Positions 49,119-64,000 of a DNA stretch of 64,000 nucleotides are shown piece after piece. The DNA is taken from NCBI GenBank assembly GCA_040902225.1, contig JBBDXT010000007.1, positions 186,001-250,000 on the forward strand, read 5' to 3'. A program made the position numbers and the translations under genes. This stretch comes from Chloroflexota bacterium (lineage in GTDB: Bacteria > Chloroflexota > Limnocylindria > QHBO01). Under the pieces are notes generated by a model. The model did no database searches. It was not told where the DNA came from and saw nothing but the letters and a program-made list of their open reading frames with translations. How positions within the stretch are numbered: the first letter of the stretch is position 1; every line of letters begins with the position of its first letter.

Positions 49119-50873
49119 GTGACCAAGCAAGAGACGACCGACGACCTGGACGCGCTGCTCGAGGCGCTCCCGCCCGAGATCGTGGCCCGCCTGCGCGGCT
49201 TCGCCAACCGTGCGGACCTGCTCGAGGTGGTGCTCGACCTTGGACGGCGTCCCGAGGCGCGCTTCACGCACGGCGAGGAAGTGCTCCTCGATCGAGAGAT
49301 CGTCGAGGCCGATCTCGCCCAGGTCATCGACCACATCGGCGCCTTCGGGGGCGACAACCGGGCGGGCATCGAGCGCACCCTGCACCGCATCAGCGCCATC
49401 CGGAACCGGGCAGGCAAGGTGGTCGGGCTGACCTGCCGCATCGGGCGCGCCGTGTTCGGCACGATCGACATCATTCGCGACATCGTCGAGGGCGGGCAGA
49501 GCGTGGTGCTGCTGGGCCGGCCCGGCATCGGCAAGACGACGATGCTGCGGGAGGTGGCCCGCGTCCTGGCCGATGACCTCGGCAAGCGCGTGATCGTGGT
49601 CGACACCAGCAACGAGATCGCGGGCGACGGTGACATCCCGCACCCCGGCATCGGCGACGCGCGGCGGATGCAGGTGCGCATCCCGGCCGAGCAGCACGCC
49701 GTCATGATCGAGGCGGTCGAGAACCACATGCCCGAGGTGATCATCATCGACGAGATCGGGACGGAGCTGGAGGCGGCCGCGGCCCGCACCATCGCGGAGC
49801 GGGGCGTCCAGCTGGTCGGCACCGCGCATGGCAACACGCTCGACAACCTGATGCTGAACCCGACCCTGTCGGACCTGGTCGGCGGGATCCAGACCGTCAC
49901 CCTGGGCGACGAGGAGGCCCGACGGCGCGGCACGCAGAAGACGGTGCTGGAACGCAAGGCTCCACCGACCTTCGACGTGGTGGTCGAGATCGTCGAGCGT
50001 GACAGCGTGATCGTGCACCGTAACGTGTCGGAGACGGTGGATGCCATCCTGCGCGGCCACATGGTCCCCCCCGAGTCGCGCTGGAGGGAGGGGGGCGAGC
50101 TGCGTGCCGCCACCAAGTACGACTACCACATCGCCGAATCCCCGACCGGCATCCCGGCCTTCGCTGCCCTCGAGCCGACGGGCGGCTTTGGGGCATTTGG
50201 CCGCGGCCGCGGCAACGGTGGTGGCGGGCCGGGGCTTCGGCCCCTGCCCGGGCGGGGGAGCGGGGGACGCGACACGGGACGCGGCAGGGCCCTGGTCGGC
50301 GAACCGTCGGAATCGTCCGACCCACGTCGGCACCTGGAGGTGGCGATGCGCGAATCGGCGGCGCCGGAGACCAGTGGCGTGGGCACGACGCCGGTGCGCT
50401 CCCATCGGCCCCTGAGCCTGTTCGGCTTCGGAGTCAGCCGCAAGCACCTCGAGCAGGCGGTCCGCGAGCTGGGCGTGCCGGTCCACGTGGCACGTGACCT
50501 TGACGAGGCCGATGCCGTCGTCACCCTCCGCAACTACTACCGTCGCAAGCCATCGGCGCTGCGTGACGCAGAGTCGGGCGGGATCCCGATCTACGTCCTC
50601 AAGACCAACACCATCATCCAGATGGAGAACCTGCTGGCCAGCCTGTTCGACCTGGAGGCCGATCCCTCAGCGGCTGCTTTGCACGAGACGGCCGAGGCGA
50701 TCGGCCTGGTGCAGTCGAGCGGCAACCCGATGGAGCTGGCGCCGCAGAACGCCTACGTGCGCCGCCTCCAGCACCAGATGGCCGAGCGCAACAACCTCAT
50801 GAGCCGCTCACGGGGGACCGAGCCGAACCGCCGCGTGGAGCTCCTCCCCGACGAGGGGCGTGCGTGGCGGTGA
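49119..50873 (+). CDS. R3H-domain AAA ATPase (Ycf45/SpoIIIAA-like)
   Basis: The 584-residue protein has an N-terminal helical region, an AAA domain with Walker [10 protein letters not shown] and Walker B VIIIDEIG, followed by [10 protein letters not shown] and DEEARRRG typical of the Ycf45/SpoIIIAA group. A Gly/Arg-rich low-complexity linker (~350-395), a further domain ([20 protein letters not shown]) and a C-terminal R3H single-stranded nucleic acid domain (RRLQH as RxxxH) follow. It should be an ATP-driven nucleic-acid or ribonucleoprotein factor. GTG at 49119 has AAGG just before it. Confidence 0.9.
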
Positions 50874-50877
50874 GCCG

Positions 50878-51534
50878 GTGAGCGCGGCCCGTCGCGGCCG
50901 CTTCATCACCCTGGAGGGCCCCGACGGGAGCGGCAAGACGACCGCCGCCCGTCACCTGGCCGAGTGGCTCCGCTCGCGGGCCGAGCCGACCGTCCTGACC
51001 GGCGAGCCGGGCGGCACGCCGCTCGGCGAGGAGGTTCGTCGCCTGGTCCTCCATGAACGCGACGTCTCGGATGACCTCGACCCCCGGGCCGATGCCCTCC
51101 TCTTCGCGGCCGCCCGAGCCCAGCACACCGCACGCGTGATCGAGCCTGCGCTGAAGCGCGGCCACAACGTGGTATGCGCGCGCTACCTGGACTCGTCGCT
51201 GGCCTACCAGGGCGCCGCCTACGGAATCGACGCCGATGCGATCCGCCAGCTGCAGCGCTTCGCCACCTATGACACGGTGCCGGACATGACGATCCTGGTC
51301 GACGTGCCGGTCGAGGTCGGCCTCGCCCGCAAGCGGCGGGGACAGTGGAACCGCTTCGAGGATACGGAGGGCGAGCGCTTCTTCGAGTTGGTGCGGCAGG
51401 CCTACCTGGCCTTCGCCGCCGCCGAGCCGGAGCGCTATCGGGTGGTCGACGGCTCGGGCAGCGTCGAGGCCACCGACGCGGCCATCCGCGCGGCCGTGGA
51501 GCCACTCGTCTTCAATCGATCGCCCTCCACGTGA
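50878..51534 (+). CDS. tmk: Thymidylate kinase
   Basis: The 218-residue enzyme phosphorylates dTMP to dTDP. Signatures: FITLEGPDGSGKTT (P-loop), TGEPGGTPLGEEVR, DPRADALLFAAARAQH, ARYLDSSLAYQG and the LID KRRGQWNRFE. GTG at 50878 is used, 4 nt after the R3H ATPase stop; GTG at 50860 is an alternative that overlaps it. Its TGA overlaps the next GTG. Confidence 0.95.
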   Translation: MSAARRGRFITLEGPDGSGKTTAARHLAEWLRSRAEPTVLTGEPGGTPLGEEVRRLVLHERDVSDDLDPRADALLFAAARAQHTARVIEPALKRGHNVVCARYLDSSLAYQGAAYGIDADAIRQLQRFATYDTVPDMTILVDVPVEVGLARKRRGQWNRFEDTEGERFFELVRQAYLAFAAAEPERYRVVDGSGSVEATDAAIRAAVEPLVFNRSPST

Positions 51535-52084: not shown

Positions 52085-52414
52085 GTGAAGCTCGTGACCG
52101 CCATCGTCCACAGCGAGGATGCGGGCAACCTGGTCGACGCCCTTCTCGAGAAGGAGTTCCGGGCCACCCGGCTCCAGTCCTCGGGCGGCTTCCTGAAACA
52201 GGGCAACGCGACCATCCTGGTGGGGGTCGAGGATGACCAGGTCGACGCGGTGCTCGAGCTCGTGAGCGCCAACTGCCACTCGCGCAAGCAGTTCGTGAAC
52301 CCCATGCCGCCGATCATGGAGCCGGGCGAGTTCTACATGCCGTACCCGGTCGAGGTCGAGGTCGGCGGCGCGACGGTCTTCGTAGTCCCCGTCGAGCGCT
52401 TCGAGCGCCTCTAG
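52085..52414 (+). CDS. PII-like signalling protein of the PstA/DarA (DUF970) family, c-di-AMP receptor-like
   Basis: The 109-residue protein has the PII-like ferredoxin fold of PstA/DarA: KLVTAIVHSEDAGNLVDALLEKEFRATRLQSSGGFL at the start and NATILVGVEDDQVDAVLELV, matching the characterised c-di-AMP receptors. Binding of c-di-AMP is inferred from family membership. The GTG is leaderless, and three periodic palindromes lie just upstream. A DNA-repair/replication context (tmk, R3H ATPase) resembles the tmk-darA arrangement of Firmicutes. Confidence 0.85.
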   Translation: MKLVTAIVHSEDAGNLVDALLEKEFRATRLQSSGGFLKQGNATILVGVEDDQVDAVLELVSANCHSRKQFVNPMPPIMEPGEFYMPYPVEVEVGGATVFVVPVERFERL

Positions 52415-54332: not shown

Positions 54333-54692
54333 ATGGATCAGACCGGACTGCTCTACGTCATCGGCTTCGGAATCGCAGCGTCGATCTTCCTCTTCGGGAC
54401 GATCCTCTTCTCGTGGCTGATCACGCACCGCCGCCGGACGCCCCAGAAAGGGCTCCCCTACGAGTGCGGGATCGACACCATCGGCGACACCTGGTCGCGC
54501 TTCGGGCTCGCCTTCTACCTGTACGCCCTGCTCTTCGTGGCCTTTGACGTGGAGATCGTCTTTGTCTACCTGTGGGCGGTCGTCGTGCGGGACCTCTCCG
54601 TGCAGGGGATCGTCCTGATCGGCGTCTTCCTGGGGATCCTGCTCTTCGGAGAGCTGTACGCCTGGCGAAAGGGTGACCTGAAATGGCGCTGA
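54333..54692 (+). CDS. nuoA: NADH-quinone oxidoreductase subunit A
   Basis: The 119-residue membrane subunit has three TM helices and the family loop [36 protein letters not shown] that shapes the quinone site of complex I. GGAG sits 5 nt before ATG 54333. It overlaps nuoB by 10 bp. It opens an operon running to 62796. Confidence 0.96.
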
Positions 54693-55348
54693 AGACTCCC
54701 CCACCTCCCACCGCCGCGGAAGCGGAAAAGGTTCTCACCGGTGGCACGCCCCCCATCGTCATCCCCGATCAGGCTGGCGACGACCAGCTCCTGACCGAGT
54801 TCGGGATGGAGGAGCACCCGCAGGGCGGCTTCCACGGCCTGCTGGAGGTGATCCCGACCCGCGCGGACATCGTCCTGGACCTGATCCGCGCCAACTCGCT
54901 CTGGCCGCTCCTGTCGGGGCTCAGCTGCTGCGCGATCGAGATGATGAGCACCGCCACCAGCAAGAACGACATCGACCGCTTCGGGATGTTCCCGTTCCGC
55001 GCCTCCCCGCGCCAGGCCGACGTGCTGATCGTGGCCGGCACCCTGACGACCAAGATGGCGGGCCCGCTGGTGCGCCTCTGGGAGCAGATGCCCGAGCCGA
55101 AATGGTGCGTCGCGATGGGCACCTGCACCACATCGGGCGGTCGCTTCAAGCGCAGCTACAGCGTGGTGCAGGGGGTCGACCGGGTGATGCCGGTCGACGT
55201 CTACGTGCCGGGATGCCCGCCACGCCCGGAGGCTCTGATCCACGGCATGATGCGGCTCCAGGAGCTGGTCAAGCAGCGGCGCGGCGAGTGGGCGACCTAC
55301 GTCGATCGCGGCGTGCAGCGGATCGACTGGGAAGGAGACGTGCGCTGA
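54683..55348 (+). CDS. nuoB: NADH-quinone oxidoreductase subunit B
   Basis: The 221-residue subunit binds the terminal [4Fe-4S] cluster N2 next to quinone; the four ligands are visible in LSCCAIEMM (two), MGTCTTSGG and [10 protein letters not shown]. It overlaps nuoA at the start and shares a CTGA overlap with nuoC. Confidence 0.96.
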
Positions 55349-55929
55349 CCGCCCCGGCCAAGGCGGGCGCCCTGGTCCGGCTCCTGCTCGATCGCTTCCC
55401 GGACCTGGCCGCCAGACTGTGGACCGACGAGGACAGCGTCGAGGTCTCGATCGAGGGCGACCGCAACGTGGCCCTGCTCCAGGTGTTGCGCGACGAGCCG
55501 GAGCTCAACTTCTTCTTCCTGGCCGATGCCGCCGCGGTCGACTACGGCGTCACCGAGCATTTCGAGGTGGTCTATCACCTCTACTCCGACCGTCATCCCG
55601 CCTGGCTCCGCGTCCGCGCACGGGTGCATCGCGCCGATCCCCACATCCCGACCATCACCGGCCTGTGGGAGGGAGCGATGTTCCACGAGCGCGAGATGTA
55701 CGACATGATGGGGATCATCTTCGACGGTAACCGCGACCTGCGGCGGATCTACATGTCGCCCGACTACCGCAGCTTCCCGCAGCGCAAGGACTTCCTCCTG
55801 CCCGATGACGCCGCCGACTCATCGGCGGCGGGGGTGCGTCCGCTCGAGCGCCCCGAGACCTGGGACCTGACCCGCCTCTCCGACGAGCTGGGGCCCGGCG
55901 TGATCGCCCATGTCGAGGGCGAGTCATGA
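55345..55929 (+). CDS. nuoC: NADH-quinone oxidoreductase subunit C (probable CTG start)
   Basis: The 194-residue subunit has [18 protein letters not shown] and the family signature [17 protein letters not shown]. No ATG/GTG/TTG lies in frame between nuoB and the conserved N-terminal region. CTG at 55345 overlaps nuoB's TGA as CTGA and has AAGGAG 7 nt upstream, so it is the best start. The alternative GTG at 55288 would overlap nuoB by 61 bp. The stop overlaps nuoD as ATGA. Confidence 0.92.
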
Positions 55930-57200
55930 CCAGCGAGGTGAAGATCCCCGACCCGCTCGACGTGGACCGGGAAGAGGAGGCACGGCTGCGTCAGGTGGCG
56001 GGCCTTCCCCCAGCCAAGGCCCCCGCCGGCGAGTACGCCGGCTTCGAATCGGTGGGGCTGCCGGAGCGGCCGCCGCAGACCGAGCGCGAAGTCGAGGTGT
56101 ACACCCTCGAGGAGGGCGAGATGCTGGTCAACATGGGCCCGCAGCACCCCTCCACCCACGGCGTCATGCGCCTGGTGGTGAAGGTCCGCGGCGAAGTGGT
56201 GATCGATATCGATCCGGTGCTCGGCTACCTGCACCGCGGGATCGAGAAGCTGTGCGAGGAGGCCACCTACACCACGGTCCTGACCTATGTCGACCCAATG
56301 GACTACATCGCGACGATGCACAACGAGCACGCTCCGGCGATGGCCTTCGAGAAGCTGTTCGGGGTCACTGCCCCCAGGCGGGCAGAGTACATCCGCGCGC
56401 TGGTGGTGGAGCTGAACCGGGTCTTTAGCCACAGCCTGATGATGGGCTTCCTGGCCCTCGACATGGGCGGCCTGACCCCGATCCTGTACGGCTTCATCAA
56501 CCGCGACGAGATCGTCGACATGCTGTCGGCGATCAGCGGTCAGCGCATGCTCTTCAACTTCTTCCGGGTTGGTGGCGTCAACTGGGACACCAACGACGAG
56601 TTCCTGTCGCGCCTCGGCACGTGGCGCAGCCACGTCCTGAAGAACGTCGAGATGAGCGAACGGGTGATGACCGACAACGAGGTCTTCCGCTCGCGGACGA
56701 TCGGGATGGGGACCCTCTCCGGCAAGGACGCGATCGCGCTGGGCGTGTCGGGGCCGAACCTGCGCGCCTCCGGCGTGCCGTTCGACGTGCGCAAGGCGCA
56801 TCCCTACTCGATCTACCCCGAGCTCGAGTTCGAGGTGATCACCCAGCCGGGCGGCGACTCGAACGCCCGCTACCTGCAGCGCGTCGCCGAGATCAAGCAG
56901 AGCATCCACCTGATCGACCAGATCGTGGACAAGATGCCGCACGGCGCGGTGCAGGCCCAGGTGCCGGGGATCATCCGGCCGAAGCCGGGCCGGGCCTACG
57001 CGGCCATCGAGTCGCCACGCGGCCTGTACAGCGTGTACGCCATCAGCGACGGCGGGCCGAACCCGTACCGCTTTCGGATGCGCGACCCGAGCTTCATCAG
57101 CCTCCAGGCGATCCCCAAGCTGATGCCCGGCCGGCTCATCGCCGACACGATGGCGGTCATGGCCAGCTTCGACCCGGTGATGGGCGGGGTCGACAAGTAG
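55926..57200 (+). CDS. nuoD: NADH-quinone oxidoreductase subunit D
   Basis: The 424-residue subunit shapes the quinone pocket with NuoB. Signatures: NMGPQHPSTHGVMRLV, VLGYLHRGIEKL, DYIATMHNEH, and the C-terminal DPVMGGVDK. An N-terminal extension of ~60 residues precedes the core. Starts ATGA-coupled to nuoC; nuoH follows with no gap. Confidence 0.96.
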   Translation: MTSEVKIPDPLDVDREEEARLRQVAGLPPAKAPAGEYAGFESVGLPERPPQTEREVEVYTLEEGEMLVNMGPQHPSTHGVMRLVVKVRGEVVIDIDPVLGYLHRGIEKLCEEATYTTVLTYVDPMDYIATMHNEHAPAMAFEKLFGVTAPRRAEYIRALVVELNRVFSHSLMMGFLALDMGGLTPILYGFINRDEIVDMLSAISGQRMLFNFFRVGGVNWDTNDEFLSRLGTWRSHVLKNVEMSERVMTDNEVFRSRTIGMGTLSGKDAIALGVSGPNLRASGVPFDVRKAHPYSIYPELEFEVITQPGGDSNARYLQRVAEIKQSIHLIDQIVDKMPHGAVQAQVPGIIRPKPGRAYAAIESPRGLYSVYAISDGGPNPYRFRMRDPSFISLQAIPKLMPGRLIADTMAVMASFDPVMGGVDK

Positions 57201-58211
57201 ATGGACCTAGACCTGCTGTTCGGTGTCCTGCGCTTCCTGCTGGCCACGACCCTGATCCTGCTGCTGACCGTGCCGACCGCCTTCGTCGTCATCCAGATGG
57301 AGCTCAAGATCATCGCCGGCGCGCAGCTTCGCTACGGCCCCAACCGGGTCGGGCCGTGGGGGATGTTCCAGAGCACGATCCACGGCTTCAAGGTCCTCGC
57401 CAAGGAGGACCACATCCCGGACCAGGCGGATCGCGCAACCTTCACCCTCGCGCCATGGATGGTCTACATGGCGGCCGCCATGAGCATGCTGGTGATCCCG
57501 TTCGCGCCCGGCGCCATCGCCGCCGACTTCAACATCGGCATCGTCTACTTCTTCGCGGTGCTGGGCCTCAGCGTGGTCGGGCTGCTGGTCGCGGGCTGGG
57601 CGAGCTACAACAAGTACTCGCTGCTGGGTGGGCTGCGCAGCGCGGCGCAGATGGTGAGCTACGAGATCCCGCTCACCCTGTCGGTGGTCGGTGCCGTGGT
57701 ACTGGCCGGCACGCTCAACTTCCGGGAGCTGATCGAGTGGCAGCGGGCACATGGCTGGATGCTGATCTGGCAGCCGGTCGGGCTGGTGATCTTCTACATC
57801 GCATCGCTGGCCGAGATCAATCGGACCCCGTTCGACATGGTCGAGGCCGACAGCGAGCTGGTGGCAGGCCCCTTCACCGAGTACTCCGGCATGCGCTTCG
57901 GCTTCTTCTTCTTCGCCGAGTACGTGGCCCTCTTCATCATGAGCGGGATCATGATCTCGCTCTTCTTCGGCGGGTGGCTGGCGCCGTGGCCCTTCCCCGA
58001 CCAGCTGGATGGCTTCATCGGCACCGTCTACGGCGTCATCTGGTTCTTTATCAAGACCTACCTCTTCGTGGCGATCGCGGTCCTGCTGCGCGCCACGCTG
58101 GTCCGGGTGCGGGTCGACCAGCTGATGGGGATGGCCTGGAAGGTGCTGCTGCCGCTGGCCATGGTCAACCTGATCGTCACCGCCGCCGCGGTGCTGGTCT
58201 TCAAGCTGTGA
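57201..58211 (+). CDS. nuoH: NADH-quinone oxidoreductase subunit H
   Basis: The 336-residue membrane subunit has about eight TM helices, RYGPNRVGPWGMFQS, the acidic loops AEINRTPFDMVEADSELVAG and FTEYSGMRFG lining the quinone chamber. ATG at 57201 directly follows the nuoD stop; its TGA overlaps the next GTG (GTGA). Confidence 0.96.
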   Translation: MDLDLLFGVLRFLLATTLILLLTVPTAFVVIQMELKIIAGAQLRYGPNRVGPWGMFQSTIHGFKVLAKEDHIPDQADRATFTLAPWMVYMAAAMSMLVIPFAPGAIAADFNIGIVYFFAVLGLSVVGLLVAGWASYNKYSLLGGLRSAAQMVSYEIPLTLSVVGAVVLAGTLNFRELIEWQRAHGWMLIWQPVGLVIFYIASLAEINRTPFDMVEADSELVAGPFTEYSGMRFGFFFFAEYVALFIMSGIMISLFFGGWLAPWPFPDQLDGFIGTVYGVIWFFIKTYLFVAIAVLLRATLVRVRVDQLMGMAWKVLLPLAMVNLIVTAAAVLVFKL

Positions 58212-59050
58212 CGATCCCGGGCCTTGGCATCCTCAAGGGGCTGCGCCAGACCGCGCGCAACTACTGGGCGCCCAAGGTCACCAACCAGTACCCGGAGTCG
58301 CGCCCGACCATGCCGGACCGATGGCGTGGCCGCCTCGACCTGATCTACGACCCGTTCGGCGAGCACAAGTGCGAGGTCTGCTTCCAGTGCGCACAGGTCT
58401 GCCCGGTGGAGGCGATCGACATGAGCGGCTTCGATTCGACCGGGCAGCGCATCCGCTACGGCCTGCCGGAGATCTACGACGAGCGCAAGGATCCCAACGC
58501 CTATCGCCGCGCCGGCCTGCCCGCGGCGCCGATGCGCAACGCGGCGCGCTGGGACGAGGAGATCGACACGCCCTGGCTGCATGGCGTGATCGACGGCTTC
58601 GGCGGCAAGCCCGAGGCGCTGGTCGCCATCTTCTCCGCCGTCGAGGAGCGCTACGGCTACCTTCCTGAGCGGGCACTGCGCGAGTCGAGCGAGCGGATGT
58701 CGATCCACTGGGCCCAGATCTTCGGAGCAGCCGGGCTGGGCGGCTTCCGTCTCCTCCCGGCCGATGGGCACCTTGTCACCGTCTGCACCTGCGCCGCCTG
58801 CCGCTTTGCCGGCGGCGACGCTCTCCTGACGGCGCTGCGCACGGACCTGGGGATCGAGCCGGGCGAGACGACCGCGGACGGTGCCGTCACCCTCGACACC
58901 AGCGACGAGGTCGCGGCCGGAGCTCTTTCCCCGGCGCTGCGCATCGACACCATGGTCTATGGACCGTTGACCGTGGATCAGGGCCGCCACGTGGTGGCCG
59001 AGCGACGCAGGGCCCCGTCGCGCGGGCGCGCCGCGCAGCCCGTCTCATGA
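58208..59050 (+). CDS. NuoI-NuoE fusion with incomplete Fe-S motifs
   Basis: A 280-residue protein. Residues ~1-95 are the N-terminal half of NuoI with one [4Fe-4S] motif (CEVCFQCAQVCP, Cys 55/58/61/65); the second NuoI cluster is missing. Residues ~135-265 are NuoE: IFSAVEERYGYLPERAL, VCTCAAC with the first Cys pair (193/198), LGIEPGETTADGAVTL. At the second NuoE pair, where Cys-x3-Cys is expected, the sequence is DEVAAGALSPAL: both cysteines are gone. So the usual N1a [2Fe-2S] cannot be fully ligated. The second NuoI motif appears at the C-terminus of the 60415-62796 protein. GTGA overlap with nuoH; overlaps the next ATG. Confidence 0.88.
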   Translation: MTIPGLGILKGLRQTARNYWAPKVTNQYPESRPTMPDRWRGRLDLIYDPFGEHKCEVCFQCAQVCPVEAIDMSGFDSTGQRIRYGLPEIYDERKDPNAYRRAGLPAAPMRNAARWDEEIDTPWLHGVIDGFGGKPEALVAIFSAVEERYGYLPERALRESSERMSIHWAQIFGAAGLGGFRLLPADGHLVTVCTCAACRFAGGDALLTALRTDLGIEPGETTADGAVTLDTSDEVAAGALSPALRIDTMVYGPLTVDQGRHVVAERRRAPSRGRAAQPVS

Positions 59051-60402
59051 CCGACGCGAGCACGGGCCTCTCCCCGCAGATCCGAATCCTGCCCGGCGGC
59101 GACCAGCGGGTGCTGGCGGAGATCGGCGTCGTCGACCCCACCAGCCTGGACAGCTACCGCAAGGCGGGTGGCTACGCCGGCCTGAAGCGCGCGATTGGGA
59201 AGCTGGGTCCCGAGGGCACCATCGACGAGATCGCCATCGCGGGCCTGCGCGGCCGTGGCGGCGGCGGCTATCCGACCGCCGACAAGTGGCGTGCCGCCCG
59301 CGCCGCGGCGGGTGACAGCAAGGTCGTGGTCGCCAACCTGATCGGCGCCGATCCGACCGCGCTTGGCGACCGGGCGCTGGCGGAGGGCAATCCGCATCTC
59401 GTGCTCGAGGGACTCCTGCTCGCCGCCTTCGCGACCGGCGCCTCGGACGCAATCATCGCAGTCCGTCGCGACTGGACGGTGGCCATCGAGCGGCTGCGAG
59501 CCGCGATCACAGAGGCCGAGGCCGCGCACCTCGCCGGCTACCTGGTCATGGGTACGGACTTCTCGTGCGTGGTGCGCGTCTGGGAAGGTGCGGTCGCCCT
59601 GGTCGCGGGCGAGGAGACGGCCCTGCTGGCCGCCCTGGCCGGGGATCGCGGCATGCCCGTCATCCGGCCCCCCTACCCCACCGAGCGAGGGCTAGGCGGC
59701 GCGCCGACCACTGTGCAGAACGGCGAGACGCTGGCGCACGCGGCCTGGATCGTGAGCCATGGAGCCAAGAAGTTCCGCGCCATCGGCTCGAAGGACGCTC
59801 CCGGCACAAAGCTGGTCACCATCTACGGGCGCGTGGCACAGCCCGGGCTGGTCGAGGTGGCGCTGGGAACGCCGCTCTCCGAGATCGTGGCGCTGGCCGG
59901 TGGCGGGACCGGGGCGACCAAGGCGGTCTTCGTGGGCGGCCCGGGCGGTGGCGCGCTGCGTGCCGACCAGCTGGACACCGTCTACGACTACGCTCCGCTG
60001 CATGCCGCCGGGGCCGGCATCGGCCTGGGCCAGTTCCTGGTGGCCGATGCCGAAACCTGCATGGTCGACTCCGCCCGCTTCTTCCTCGACTACTCCGCCC
60101 GCGAGGCCTGCGGCAAGGCGGTCCCGTGCCGGATCGGCACCAAGCGGCTGGTGGAGACCCTGGACCGCATCCTGGCGGCGAGCCCGCGGCCCAACGACGT
60201 GCTGCTGCTGCGCGAGCTGGCCCGCAAGATGACCGACACCGCCCTCTGCCACCTCGAGGCTCGCGCACCGGGACCGATGCTGACCACGCTCGACCGCTTC
60301 CCCGACGAGTACCGCGCCCACGCCGAACGGGGCGAATGCCTGGCCGGCTCATGCACTGCGTCGCAGCTGCCACCGCTCCTGACGCCACTGGCAGGCCTCT
60401 AA
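59047..60402 (+). CDS. nuoF: NuoF-like flavoprotein subunit with altered NADH and N3-cluster sites
   Basis: The 451-residue protein aligns with NuoF throughout: FMN loop LRGRGGGGYPTADKW (~67-81), AGEETALL (~188-193), PTTVQNGETLA, and the N3 cluster region. Differences: the acidic loop normally NxDExEPG reads NLIGADPTALGDR (~97-109), removing the Glu that faces NADH; and ESCGKCTPC reads EACGKAVPC, so the middle cluster Cys is Ala 358. The fourth ligand C401 is present. FMN binding looks possible, normal NADH oxidation doubtful. ATGA overlap upstream; 12 bp before the next gene. Confidence 0.88.
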   Translation: MTDASTGLSPQIRILPGGDQRVLAEIGVVDPTSLDSYRKAGGYAGLKRAIGKLGPEGTIDEIAIAGLRGRGGGGYPTADKWRAARAAAGDSKVVVANLIGADPTALGDRALAEGNPHLVLEGLLLAAFATGASDAIIAVRRDWTVAIERLRAAITEAEAAHLAGYLVMGTDFSCVVRVWEGAVALVAGEETALLAALAGDRGMPVIRPPYPTERGLGGAPTTVQNGETLAHAAWIVSHGAKKFRAIGSKDAPGTKLVTIYGRVAQPGLVEVALGTPLSEIVALAGGGTGATKAVFVGGPGGGALRADQLDTVYDYAPLHAAGAGIGLGQFLVADAETCMVDSARFFLDYSAREACGKAVPCRIGTKRLVETLDRILAASPRPNDVLLLRELARKMTDTALCHLEARAPGPMLTTLDRFPDEYRAHAERGECLAGSCTASQLPPLLTPLAGL

Positions 60403-60414
60403 GATGCACCGGCC

Positions 60415-62796
60415 ATGAGCTTCGCCACCGACGGCAACGGGAACGGCAAGGGCGCGCCGCTGCGCCCGGAGGACTACACCCCCATCTGGCCGATGGTGCC
60501 GGGCACCCGCAAGATCAGCGTCACCATCAACGGCGCGCAGGTCGAGGCCGAGGAGGGGCAGACCATCCTGCAGGCCACCCGCGTGCTGGGGATCGACGTC
60601 CCGACGCTGTGCTACGAGCCGAAGCTGGCGCCCTACGGTGCCTGCCGCATCTGCGTGGTCGAGGTCGAGGGCCAGGAGACCACGCCGATCAGCTGCGGGA
60701 CGCAGATCACCGACGGGATGGTCATCACCACCCACTCCGATCGGCTGGTCGAGAACCGGCGCATGGTGCTGGAGCTGATCTTCAGCGACCACGACGCCTA
60801 CTGCCTGCCGCCGTGCCAGTTCAAGTGCCCGACCAGGGTCGACATCCCCGGCTACCTGAAGCAGAACACCCTGGGCAATTGGGAGGAGGCGACGCGCATC
60901 CTGAAGCGCTCGCTGCCGTTCCCGGCCATCCTGGGCCGCGTCTGCCCCGCGCCGTGCGAGACACACTGCCGGCGCGAGGAGGTCGACACCGCCATCGCCA
61001 TCCGCGACTCGCACCGCTACTGCGCGGATCGGGTGCTCGAGGTCGACGCTCCGGCCCCCACGCCGTGGCCCAAGGAGCCCGACTCGGGACGCCGGGTGGC
61101 GGTTATCGGTTCCGGCCCGGCAGGCATGTCGGTGGCCTATTACCTCCAGCTGCGCGGCCACCACTGCGACGTCTTCGAGGCCGATCCGGAGCAGGGCGGC
61201 ATGCTGCGCTACGGGATCCCCGCCTATCGGCTGCCGAAGGAGTGGATGGACCGCGAGCTGAACCACGTCTGGGAGCTGGGCGCCACCTTCAGGCCGAACA
61301 TGCGCCTCGGTCGGGACTTCCACGTCGCCGACCTGCTGGAGCAGGGCTACGACGCGGTCTACGTGGGCATCGGCTGCTACAAGTCCAACGAGATGGGGAT
61401 CCCCGGCGAGGACGCGGACGGCGTGGTCAACGCCCTGGAGAACCTCTACAACAGCTCGCGCGGCGTCGAGATTCCCGCGCTGAAGGACGCGCGGGTGGTG
61501 GTCATCGGCGGCGGCTTCACGGCCATCGACTGCACGCGCACCAGCCTGCGCCAGCGCGCTGCCGAGGTGACCCTGGTCTACCGCCGCGACCTGAAGGACA
61601 TGCCTGCTCAGGACGAGGTCCACGAGGCGATCGAGGAGGGGGCGCGCGTCATCTTCCAGGCAGCACCCGTACGGATCGTGACCGACAAGAACAACAAGGT
61701 CACCGGCGTCGAGTTCCAGCGCATGCACCTGGGCGAGCCCGACGAGAAGGGTCGCCGTCGCCCGGAGCCGATGCCCGGCACCGAGTTCACCGTGAGCTGC
61801 GACACGGTGCTGGGTGCCATCGGCCAGGGACCCGAGCTGACCTGGATCGAGAGCGAGCCCGAGGAGATCCGCGCGCAGCTCGAGACCAGCCGCCGCGGCA
61901 CCCTGGTCAGCGAGGACGACATCTTCCGCACCGGCCTGCCGAAGGTCTTCGCGTCAGGCGACGTGCGCGCCGGAGCGACGACCGTGGTCGAGGCGATCGG
62001 AGAGGGGCGGCGCGCCTCCTATGCGATTGACTACTGGCTGCGCGGCCACAACCTCGACGATCCGCAGGTGCGCCGCATCGTGAGCGAGCCGCAGCCCAGC
62101 TTCCTGACCATCGTGCCCTTCACCGACGACGTGAAGGAGCCGAAGGCGGTGATGGGCAAGCTCGACGCGGCCACGCGCAAGCAGGACTTCGGGGAATACG
62201 AGTTCGGCTACACCGGCGACCAGGCCATGGCCGAGGCGGCGCGCTGTTTGCAGTGCACCTGCGAGGCAATCGGCCACTGCGACCTGCGCGAGGCCGCCAT
62301 CGAGTACGAGACGACGCTCAACATGGCGATCGACGAGCGCTCGATCCAGGACAACCCGTACGTCGGCGCCAACCACGGCTACGGCCGGGACGAGACGCAC
62401 TCCTTCATCCTGCGCGACTACTCCCGCTGCATCGACTGCGGCCGCTGCGCGCAGGTCTGCAAGGACATCGTGGGTGCCGGCTGCTACGACTTCATCGGCA
62501 AGGGCTTCGACTCGCTCGTCACCACCGCGGACTTCGTCTCCCTCAACGAGACCCCGTGCGTGTCCTGCGGCCGCTGCGCCGAGACATGCCCGGTCGGCGC
62601 CCTGATGCCGCGGCCACGGACCCTCGAGACGTACCAGCTCGACATGAGCCGATGCATCTTCTGCGGCATCTGCGCCGACGCCTGCCCGTACGACGCCCTG
62701 CGCTGTGGCCCTGAGTTCGAGTTCAGCGAGTACCAGCGCGATCTGCCGATGCTGGACATCCTCGAGATGTCCGACCGGGAGCGACCCACCAGGTAG
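60415..62796 (+). CDS. NuoG-type [2Fe-2S] / GltD-like FAD-NAD(P)H / multi-ferredoxin fusion, with NuoI C-terminal half
   Basis: A 793-residue fusion in the place of NuoG. Residues ~32-100: plant-type/NuoG [2Fe-2S] (Cys 66, 77, 80, 94). ~126-205: GltD-type Cys-rich [4Fe-4S] region (HDAYCLPPCQFKCPT; GRVCPAPCETHC). ~226-545: FAD and NAD(P)H domains with IGSGPAG and IGGGFTAID, as in glutamate synthase small subunit/NfnB. Then CLQCTC (611-616), CIDCGRCAQVC (672-682), CVSCGRCAETC (715-725) and CIFCGICADACP (747-758) with PEFEFSEYQRD after it, which matches the second half of NuoI. No molybdopterin domain. It could itself accept electrons from NAD(P)H and wire them to complex I. Confidence 0.9.
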   Translation: MSFATDGNGNGKGAPLRPEDYTPIWPMVPGTRKISVTINGAQVEAEEGQTILQATRVLGIDVPTLCYEPKLAPYGACRICVVEVEGQETTPISCGTQITDGMVITTHSDRLVENRRMVLELIFSDHDAYCLPPCQFKCPTRVDIPGYLKQNTLGNWEEATRILKRSLPFPAILGRVCPAPCETHCRREEVDTAIAIRDSHRYCADRVLEVDAPAPTPWPKEPDSGRRVAVIGSGPAGMSVAYYLQLRGHHCDVFEADPEQGGMLRYGIPAYRLPKEWMDRELNHVWELGATFRPNMRLGRDFHVADLLEQGYDAVYVGIGCYKSNEMGIPGEDADGVVNALENLYNSSRGVEIPALKDARVVVIGGGFTAIDCTRTSLRQRAAEVTLVYRRDLKDMPAQDEVHEAIEEGARVIFQAAPVRIVTDKNNKVTGVEFQRMHLGEPDEKGRRRPEPMPGTEFTVSCDTVLGAIGQGPELTWIESEPEEIRAQLETSRRGTLVSEDDIFRTGLPKVFASGDVRAGATTVVEAIGEGRRASYAIDYWLRGHNLDDPQVRRIVSEPQPSFLTIVPFTDDVKEPKAVMGKLDAATRKQDFGEYEFGYTGDQAMAEAARCLQCTCEAIGHCDLREAAIEYETTLNMAIDERSIQDNPYVGANHGYGRDETHSFILRDYSRCIDCGRCAQVCKDIVGAGCYDFIGKGFDSLVTTADFVSLNETPCVSCGRCAETCPVGALMPRPRTLETYQLDMSRCIFCGICADACPYDALRCGPEFEFSEYQRDLPMLDILEMSDRERPTR

Positions 62797-62887: not shown

Positions 62888-64000
62888 TCAGGCGCTGGCC
62901 AATGGCAGTCGCTGTTGCACGACCGCGTACGGATCCTCGAGCTCCCAAGATCTGCCGAGCTCCCAGACAGGCGCCGCGAGCGAGAACAGAGCCGGCGTCG
63001 CAACGTAGAACCGGCCCCGCTTCTCGCCCATTGGCTCGAGCAGCCCGAGTTCGACGAGCCGCTTCAGATCACGGCCGCCGGCGTGTTCCGAGATCTCCGC
63101 GTTCTCGTGGTATTGGCCGTTCCGGACACGGAATCGCTGTGCGGCATCGAACAGGGCCAGCACCGTGCGTTCTGGCAAGCCATCACGGGCTGACCGGTCG
63201 GTTAGCACCGACCACAGCCGTTCAGCCTGGCGGGCCCGCCGCATGAGGGTCCGGGCCTGCCGGAAATGCGCGGTGAGGTTGAACCGAATCCACGGTGAGG
63301 CGTCGTTCCACGGCTGCCATGTGCCGCGTCCTACCTCAGCGAGAACGTCGTAATAGGCCTGCGTGTTCCGGCCCAAGTACTCCTCGACGCTCGCGAATTC
63401 GGTCTGCAGGATGCCTTCCTGCGACAGGACAAGCGACTGAATGATGCGGGCCATGCGCCCGTTGCCGTCGCGGTAGGGATGGATCATGGCCAGGTTCAGG
63501 TGAGCCATTGCGGCGCGCACGAGGGCGGGCACGCTCGTGGAGTCGTGAAGCTCGGCTACCAGCTCTTCCACTAGCCCGGGAACCTCGTCTCCGGGCGGCC
63601 CCTCGTAGACGATCTGACCCGATGCCTCGTTATGCACGTAGATCGGCCCTGGCCGGAAGAGGCCCGGCCCCTTGGCCATGTCGTACTTGAGCATCATGAA
63701 GTGAAGGCTGTTGATTAGCCCCTGGCTGTAGGCGAAGTGCGGGTCATTCGCCAGCTGCAGGACGTACGTCATCGCGTCCCGATAGCCCGCGATAGCCTGG
63801 CGCGTCTCCTCGGCGGCACCGAGCGGCTCCTCGCCCTCCGCCATCGCCATGGCATCGGCCAAGGTGACGATGTACCCCTCGATGGTGTTGGAGCCTTGGA
63901 TCGCGCGTGCGAACATGACGCGGCGTAGCGACCCCGTCCAACGCCGGGGGCTCTGAGCCACCGCGTATCGAAGGTTGGTACGTAGATCGTCGATCTTCGC
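62888..64000 (-). CDS. Fic-domain AMP-transferase-like protein (truncated at window edge)
   Basis: The frame is open from 62888 to the right edge; codons continue in frame beyond GTG 63961 (KIDDLRTNLRY before it), so the true start lies outside. The Fic motif HPYRDGNGRMAR is intact and should transfer AMP or a related group to a target hydroxyl. An N-terminal inhibitory motif SNTIEG (S-x3-E-G) is present, marking a self-inhibited class II protein. A C-terminal winged-helix-like region (~280-340) is typical of this branch. It converges with the nuo operon and has no visible antitoxin partner in the window. Confidence 0.9.
   Translation of the reverse strand, partial: AKIDDLRTNLRYAVAQSPRRWTGSLRRVMFARAIQGSNTIEGYIVTLADAMAMAEGEEPLGAAEETRQAIAGYRDAMTYVLQLANDPHFAYSQGLINSLHFMMLKYDMAKGPGLFRPGPIYVHNEASGQIVYEGPPGDEVPGLVEELVAELHDSTSVPALVRAAMAHLNLAMIHPYRDGNGRMARIIQSLVLSQEGILQTEFASVEEYLGRNTQAYYDVLAEVGRGTWQPWNDASPWIRFNLTAHFRQARTLMRRARQAERLWSVLTDRSARDGLPERTVLALFDAAQRFRVRNGQYHENAEISEHAGGRDLKRLVELGLLEPMGEKRGRFYVATPALFSLAAPVWELGRSWELEDPYAVVQQRLPLASA

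Follow-up and report, generated by a model that had tools for sequence, protein, structure and literature searches.

Stn, the Sporomusa-type Nfn (StnABC, PDB 8oh5; relative 9bov), is a soluble enzyme of NuoE-, NuoF- and GltD/NuoG-like subunits, whose genes follow one another in this order in stnABC (excerpts of PMC7483475). According to excerpts of PMC10482914, the NADPH:methyl viologen activity of Stn resides in StnC, electrons pass from FAD through the StnC clusters to StnB, and the Stn reactions are reversible. The other closely related systems are the canonical 14-subunit complex I (NuoA-N) of other Chloroflexota, in which the genes E-F-G precede H and an intact I follows it in the outgroup operons, and the 11-subunit complex I-like enzymes without NuoEFG, which are also a complex I core without the ordinary NADH module (excerpts of PMC11238625). 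The electron donors of complex I and its 11-subunit relatives are described as an open question in the same excerpts. In this study, we analysed a complex I operon in a window of 64,000 nucleotides (the whole stretch of DNA) from a Chloroflexota genome of the class Limnocylindria. On the evidence of its sequence, this operon probably encodes a proton-pumping complex I with a Stn-type NADPH dehydrogenase input end instead of a NADH dehydrogenase, in which NuoF and NuoE would be scaffold relics. By title or abstract, no Stn-type complex I and no split nuoI is described in the open-licence literature searched.

The operon runs nuoA-B-C-D-H, a NuoI/NuoE fusion gene, nuoF and the gene of a 793-aa GltD/NuoG protein; the features are listed below, and the counts for the N3 motif, the fusion and the 793-aa protein here and in the following refer to alignment rows thinned by a shared-segment key, in which a few genomes possibly stand under two loci.

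54333..54692, plus strand: nuoA, start uncertain (Pfam Oxidored_q4, 1.5e-31)
54683..55348, plus strand: nuoB (TIGR01957 nuoB, above its cut-off)
55345..55929, plus strand: nuoC, start uncertain (Pfam Complex1_30kDa, 6.8e-36)
55926..57200, plus strand: nuoD (Pfam Complex1_49kDa, 5.4e-81)
57201..58211, plus strand: nuoH (Pfam NADHdh, 1.8e-108)
58208..59050, plus strand: fusion of the NuoI N-terminal half (aa 1-77) with NuoE (aa 127-264), GTG start (TIGR01971, Pfam 2Fe-2S_thioredx)
58370..58402, plus strand: NuoI motif 1, CEVCFQCAQVC (Cys55/58/61/65), four Cys in all 40 covering rows (44 aligned)
59047..60402, plus strand: NuoF homologue, the main subject, a single 451-aa ORF from ATG to stop
59335..59355, plus strand: NLIGADP, FMN/NADH-site loop, aa 97-103 (NuoF alignments)
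60103..60129, plus strand: EACGKAVPC, N3 motif with Ala358, aa 353-361 (NuoF alignments)
60415..62796, plus strand: 793-aa subunit (profile and structure-sequence matches)
60805..62043, plus strand: GltD/StnC-like FAD and NADPH domain, aa 131-543 (profile match, StnC alignment, conserved Arg)
61012..61014, plus strand: His200, at the place of StnC Lys170 (StnC alignment; His in 31 of 31 rows)
62617..62793, plus strand: NuoI C-terminal half with motif 2, CIFCGICADAC (Cys747/750/753/757; TIGR01971 match at aa 735-776), four Cys in all 25 covering rows (31 aligned)

The genes nuoJ-K-L-M-N lie just past the window end, after minus-strand genes (about G000:C7:250730-256756), and the complex I core is complete (NuoA, B, C, D, H, J, K, L, M and N), while the complex I operon holds no ordinary E/F/G module. 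NuoN was assigned to the 501-aa frame L041:6355-7857 by position and by likeness to NuoM/NuoL; the NuoN rows of the operon comparisons, including those for family f2 and the outgroup operons, are void as the reference was off-frame. Between the GltD protein and nuoJ, a Fic-like gene (62888-63961, minus strand) and a VanZ-like gene (L041:1330-1782, minus strand) were named by eye; at locus L050 nuoJ directly follows the GltD protein. Elsewhere in the window, a little downstream of a thymidylate kinase-like frame (50860-51534), a 109-aa protein is encoded at 52085-52414 on the plus strand, which looks to us like a member of the PII-like c-di-AMP receptor family.

The analysis showed that nuoI is split around the NuoE/NuoF/GltD-NuoG cassette, with motif 1 now on the NuoE chain and motif 2 at the end of the GltD/NuoG protein. 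The two halves tile TIGR01971 (positions 3-66 in the fusion, 71-112 in the 793-aa protein), and each of the two proteins carries one CxxCxxCxxxCP motif, in place of two motifs in one chain. The 793-aa protein aligns to E. coli NuoI at aa 712-775, and this stretch could be read as a whole two-motif ferredoxin; however, the first two motifs of the protein are the usual HydA/NuoG pair, so one NuoI motif is left over in each protein. In known NuoI, both clusters take cysteines from both motifs. Since each cluster needs both, we infer that the NuoI clusters N6a and N6b would be shared between two chains. Among the matches listed, no NuoI in any of the 61 class genomes passed the TIGR01971 cut-off; by hand count, the first half was present in at least 57 of the 61, the second in at least 55 and both, separately, in at least 54. 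Matches that covered the NuoI as well as the NuoE part of the fusion (beginning at query residue 1-3 and reaching at least 176) were counted by hand in at least 43 of 57 class genomes, and none was among the matches listed for the 343 other genomes of the phylum (400 in total), where two weak fusion matches, in G158 and in G317, begin only at residues 50-55 and are interrupted by stops. The source genome holds no second match to the fusion. Of seven outgroup operons from other Chloroflexota, five (L155, L156, L158, L161 and L162) possess a single, undivided NuoI with both motifs beside NuoH; the stretches taken for L157 and L159 contain none. AlphaFold gave a mean pLDDT of 53.5 for the fusion (6-row alignment) and of 31.2 for the 793-aa protein (4-row alignment), values too low for the models to be informative.

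The 793-aa protein consists, in order, of a NuoG-type [2Fe-2S] start, the GltD FAD/NADPH domain, a HydA/NuoG-type double [4Fe-4S] domain and the C-terminal half of NuoI. Its FAD/NADPH motifs are kept across the class rows: all 30 rows that reach Arg375/379/390/391 have these four residues, and Arg272, the counterpart of StnC Arg239, is found in 31 of 31. The cluster cysteines are likewise invariant in the covering rows, save for one Phe at Cys682. The best solved relatives of all three module proteins are chains of the Stn-type structures 9bov, 8oh5 and 9n5u, and the module shares with Stn the gene order, the [2Fe-2S] start, the HxxxCxxxCxxxCP motif and the FAD/NADPH site. In contrast to soluble Stn, it is joined to complex I, lacks the FdhF-like domain, and has a NuoF that aligns to StnB residues 106-525 of 584 only, without the N-terminal or ferredoxin domain of StnB. 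The ligand set of the StnA [2Fe-2S] bifurcation cluster is incomplete in the source NuoE, where the second Cys pair is lost, and Ile144 stands against StnC Cys114. In excerpts of PMC10482914, StnC Lys170 is an unusual ligand of the cluster adjoining FAD and strictly conserved among StnC proteins, with Glu in NfnB; because this residue is His200 here, the GltD relay may behave differently. Compared with canonical complex I, the Q module (B, C, D, H) and the membrane arm (A, J, K, L, M, N) are the same, but full-length NuoG and intact NuoI are missing, NuoE and NuoF are degenerate and a GltD domain is added. Unlike the 11-subunit enzymes, the source operon encodes, and fuses, a probable donor module.

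The NuoF homologue lies at the position, strand and frame given by the sequence-only reading. Pfam Complex1_51K, SLBB and NADH_4Fe-4S all match it and it is 35% identical to E. coli NuoF over 402 aa, but its score of 305.6 bits is below the TIGR01959 cut-off of 558.65. That EACGKAVPC replaces ESCGKCTPC was borne out: the N3 ligand positions read Cys355, Ala358, Cys361 and Cys401, and no substitute conserved Cys was seen near Ala358 in the aligned NuoF motifs. Likewise, NLIGADP does stand in place of the NxDExEPG loop (the protein reads NLIGADPT), and alignment to E. coli NuoF identifies the lost loop acids as Asp92 and Glu93, now Ile99 and Gly100. In source-NuoF numbering, all 30 aligned canonical Chloroflexota NuoF (loci from a search of 121 genomes, 42 of which were over the NuoF cut-off) have Asp99, Glu100, Glu102, Gly104, Cys187 and Cys358, where the source has Ile, Gly, Asp, Thr, Ala and Ala. 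The proposed loss of the NADH-contacting Glu (Nqo1 Glu97) could not be upheld. E. coli NuoF Glu95, which we take, judging by the motif, to be the counterpart of Nqo1 Glu97, aligns with Asp102 of the source protein. This substitution is conservative, and StnB likewise has an Asp (Asp186) at the place of Nqo1 Glu97, with NAD+ bound (excerpts of PMC10482914). With an Asp at this position in NAD-active StnB as well, the Glu97 argument against NADH use fails and was rejected. In our alignment, the second of the two lost loop acids corresponds to Aquifex NuoF Glu95, which is involved in nicotinamide binding via a water molecule and in a peptide flip that depends on the redox state (excerpts of PMC6560083). 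The claim that the other FMN-site motifs are retained holds for the Gly-rich loop, Lys80 and GEET, but not for E. coli Cys180, Asn217 and Gly97, which are Ala187, Gln224 and Thr104. Thus, apart from its Glu97 argument, the earlier conclusion stands in direction: judged from these residues, a standard N3 cluster in the source NuoF is unlikely and NADH oxidation by it doubtful. Both points are also supported by the N1a losses in NuoE, the conservation pattern of NuoF and the adjoining FAD/NADPH entry subunit.

Across the class, the second N3 Cys is absent in 32 of the 38 NuoF rows that cover all four sites (19 Ala, 12 Thr, 1 Ser; the source and L001 are one sequence, and L001 was omitted from this count). 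Therefore, Ala358 is neither chance nor a sequencing error. By family, the position is Ala in 19 of 19 f1 rows (source included), Thr in 10, Ser in one and Cys in one of the 12 f3 rows, Thr in both f5 rows and Cys in all five f2 rows. The remaining three cysteines are kept in 38 of 38 rows, so that Ala358 alone is no proof of N3 loss, and N3 may persist as a three-cysteine cluster. Asp at position 99 is gone in every covering class row, whereas it is present in 30 of 30 canonical NuoF; Glu at position 100 is kept in some f3 and f5 rows. In the NuoE part, the second pair of N1a ligands is lost; no class row has a complete set, and the first pair is also lost in six f3 rows and all five f2 rows. 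Loci L030 and L164 of genome G053 have a split-nuoI operon too, yet their NuoF retains all four N3 Cys and Glu100, and it is possible that this NuoF is an evolutionary intermediate. Given the four N3 cysteines in f2 and G053 and the Glu100 of some f3 and f5 rows, the NuoF site cannot be called dead throughout the class. The three invariant cysteines and these full N3 sets suggest some remaining role of NuoF, perhaps with a [3Fe-4S] or oxygen-liganded cluster, or one in structure only.

In the class, NuoF is among the less conserved subunits, as are NuoC and NuoJ, whereas in canonical Chloroflexota operons it ranks with the better-conserved ones. Between source and L053, identities are 67% for F, 83% for D, 80% for H and 87% for the GltD protein, and between source and L164 they are 47, 65, 62 and 60%; for F, D, H and NuoG, the outgroup pair L156 and L158 gave 58, 63, 47 and 41% and the pair L158 and L159 gave 62, 72, 53 and 55% (13 pairs compared, several cells empty). 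In a midpoint-rooted tree with a long f2 branch, the class NuoF rows group in a clade of their own (100/97), separate from both Stn/Hyd and canonical NuoF. In f2, B, D, the fusion, F and the GltD protein stand together; in G022 of this family, C-H-J-K-L-M-N are on another contig (the N row being void), with no NuoI between H and J. The f2 complex I genes thus lie in two clusters (L160 on G022:C33 and L068 on G022:C8), and the Stn-like module adjoins nuoB and nuoD. A soluble hydrogenase was considered for the f2 set and rejected, as NuoH was found in all eight f2 genomes queried and the membrane genes of G022 are on another contig. Two other arrangements were observed. At L073:7668-10850 (minus strand), a 1061-aa frame matches NuoF, with HydB-like motifs, and a GltD stretch, and NuoE-like and NuoG-like frames adjoin it. 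A separate cluster at L163 (G035:C72) with NuoL/M-like, NuoD-like (28%) and NuoB-like (46%) frames is perhaps a membrane-bound hydrogenase or a relative.

We propose that NADPH would reduce the FAD of the GltD domain, from which electrons would pass through the Fe-S clusters of the 793-aa protein to the two [4Fe-4S] clusters N6a and N6b between the NuoI halves, on to N2 in NuoB and then to quinone, with proton pumping by the membrane subunits. This route is suggested because the branch through NuoF seems to lead nowhere and one half of NuoI is joined to the StnC-like protein. The decay of N3, loop and N1a alongside intact cluster and NADPH motifs in the GltD protein supports the NADPH-input reading, with NuoF and the NuoE part as scaffold relics that would have a crippled FMN/NADH loop, an incomplete N1a set and a three-cysteine N3 at best. 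PntAB would turn metabolic NADH into NADPH, so that NADH would enter the complex by way of PntAB. PntB was found in all 20 class genomes tested, including four reduced ones of 1.1-1.2 Mb, and in the source genome PntA-like frames, named by eye, adjoin it.

It is also conceivable, though we regard it as unlikely, that NuoF is still catalytic, with FMN and NAD(H) bound in a remodelled pocket, and that the complex uses NADH at NuoF together with NADPH at GltD or acts as a transhydrogenase plus quinone reductase. Binding of FMN and NAD(H) may have survived, since the FMN-loop glycines, Lys80, GEET and Asp102, the match of StnB Asp186 near bound NAD+, remain, and three N3 cysteines are invariant, with four in f2 and G053. 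An active NADH site would moreover be useful to the source organism, in whose genome the E. coli Ndh query found no NDH-2; the same query matched 100 of 121 genomes of the phylum, including G002 of the same genus, and missed 21. Against this, class rows have lost Asp99 throughout and the second N3 Cys in most cases, the N1a set is incomplete, and conservation of NuoF is below that of D, H and the GltD protein. The complex might instead run in reverse, with electrons from ferredoxin or, driven by the proton motive force, from quinol reducing NADP+ at the GltD FAD to provide NADPH for biosynthesis. The reversibility of Stn and the many class genomes with an NDH-2-like match that could feed quinone would suit such a role; however, we consider it very improbable, as the complex lacks the C-terminal StnB domain that reduces ferredoxin, the class already has an NADPH maker in PntB, and the source genome encodes a haem-copper oxidase. 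Loss of cofactor ligands in NuoE and NuoF might also point to a degenerate, non-functional operon or to an assembly artefact. This is scarcely credible, as the architecture is conserved class-wide, with all frames open in independent genomes of f1, f3 and f5 and up to 96% conservation of the 793-aa protein, and the source NuoF is the only NuoF match in a genome that is 99% complete.

With slightly less than even confidence, we extend the NADPH-input reading to the whole class, which would then respire via an NADPH:quinone complex I, with a stnABC-type cassette inserted between the nuoI motifs, N6a and N6b built from two polypeptides and the NADH subunit decayed to a scaffold. The decay of the NADH site is graded, from four N3 cysteines in f2 and G053, through Thr or Ser in f5 and the remaining f3 rows, to Ala in f1. 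The class provides naturally occurring variants of N1a, N3 and the NADH loop as well as a ferredoxin domain divided between two chains, and it cautions that annotation of nuoE and nuoF need not mean NADH respiration. For this lineage, the answer to the question of the electron donor may be written in the genes themselves, where an NADPH module is joined to NuoI on the scale of a class.
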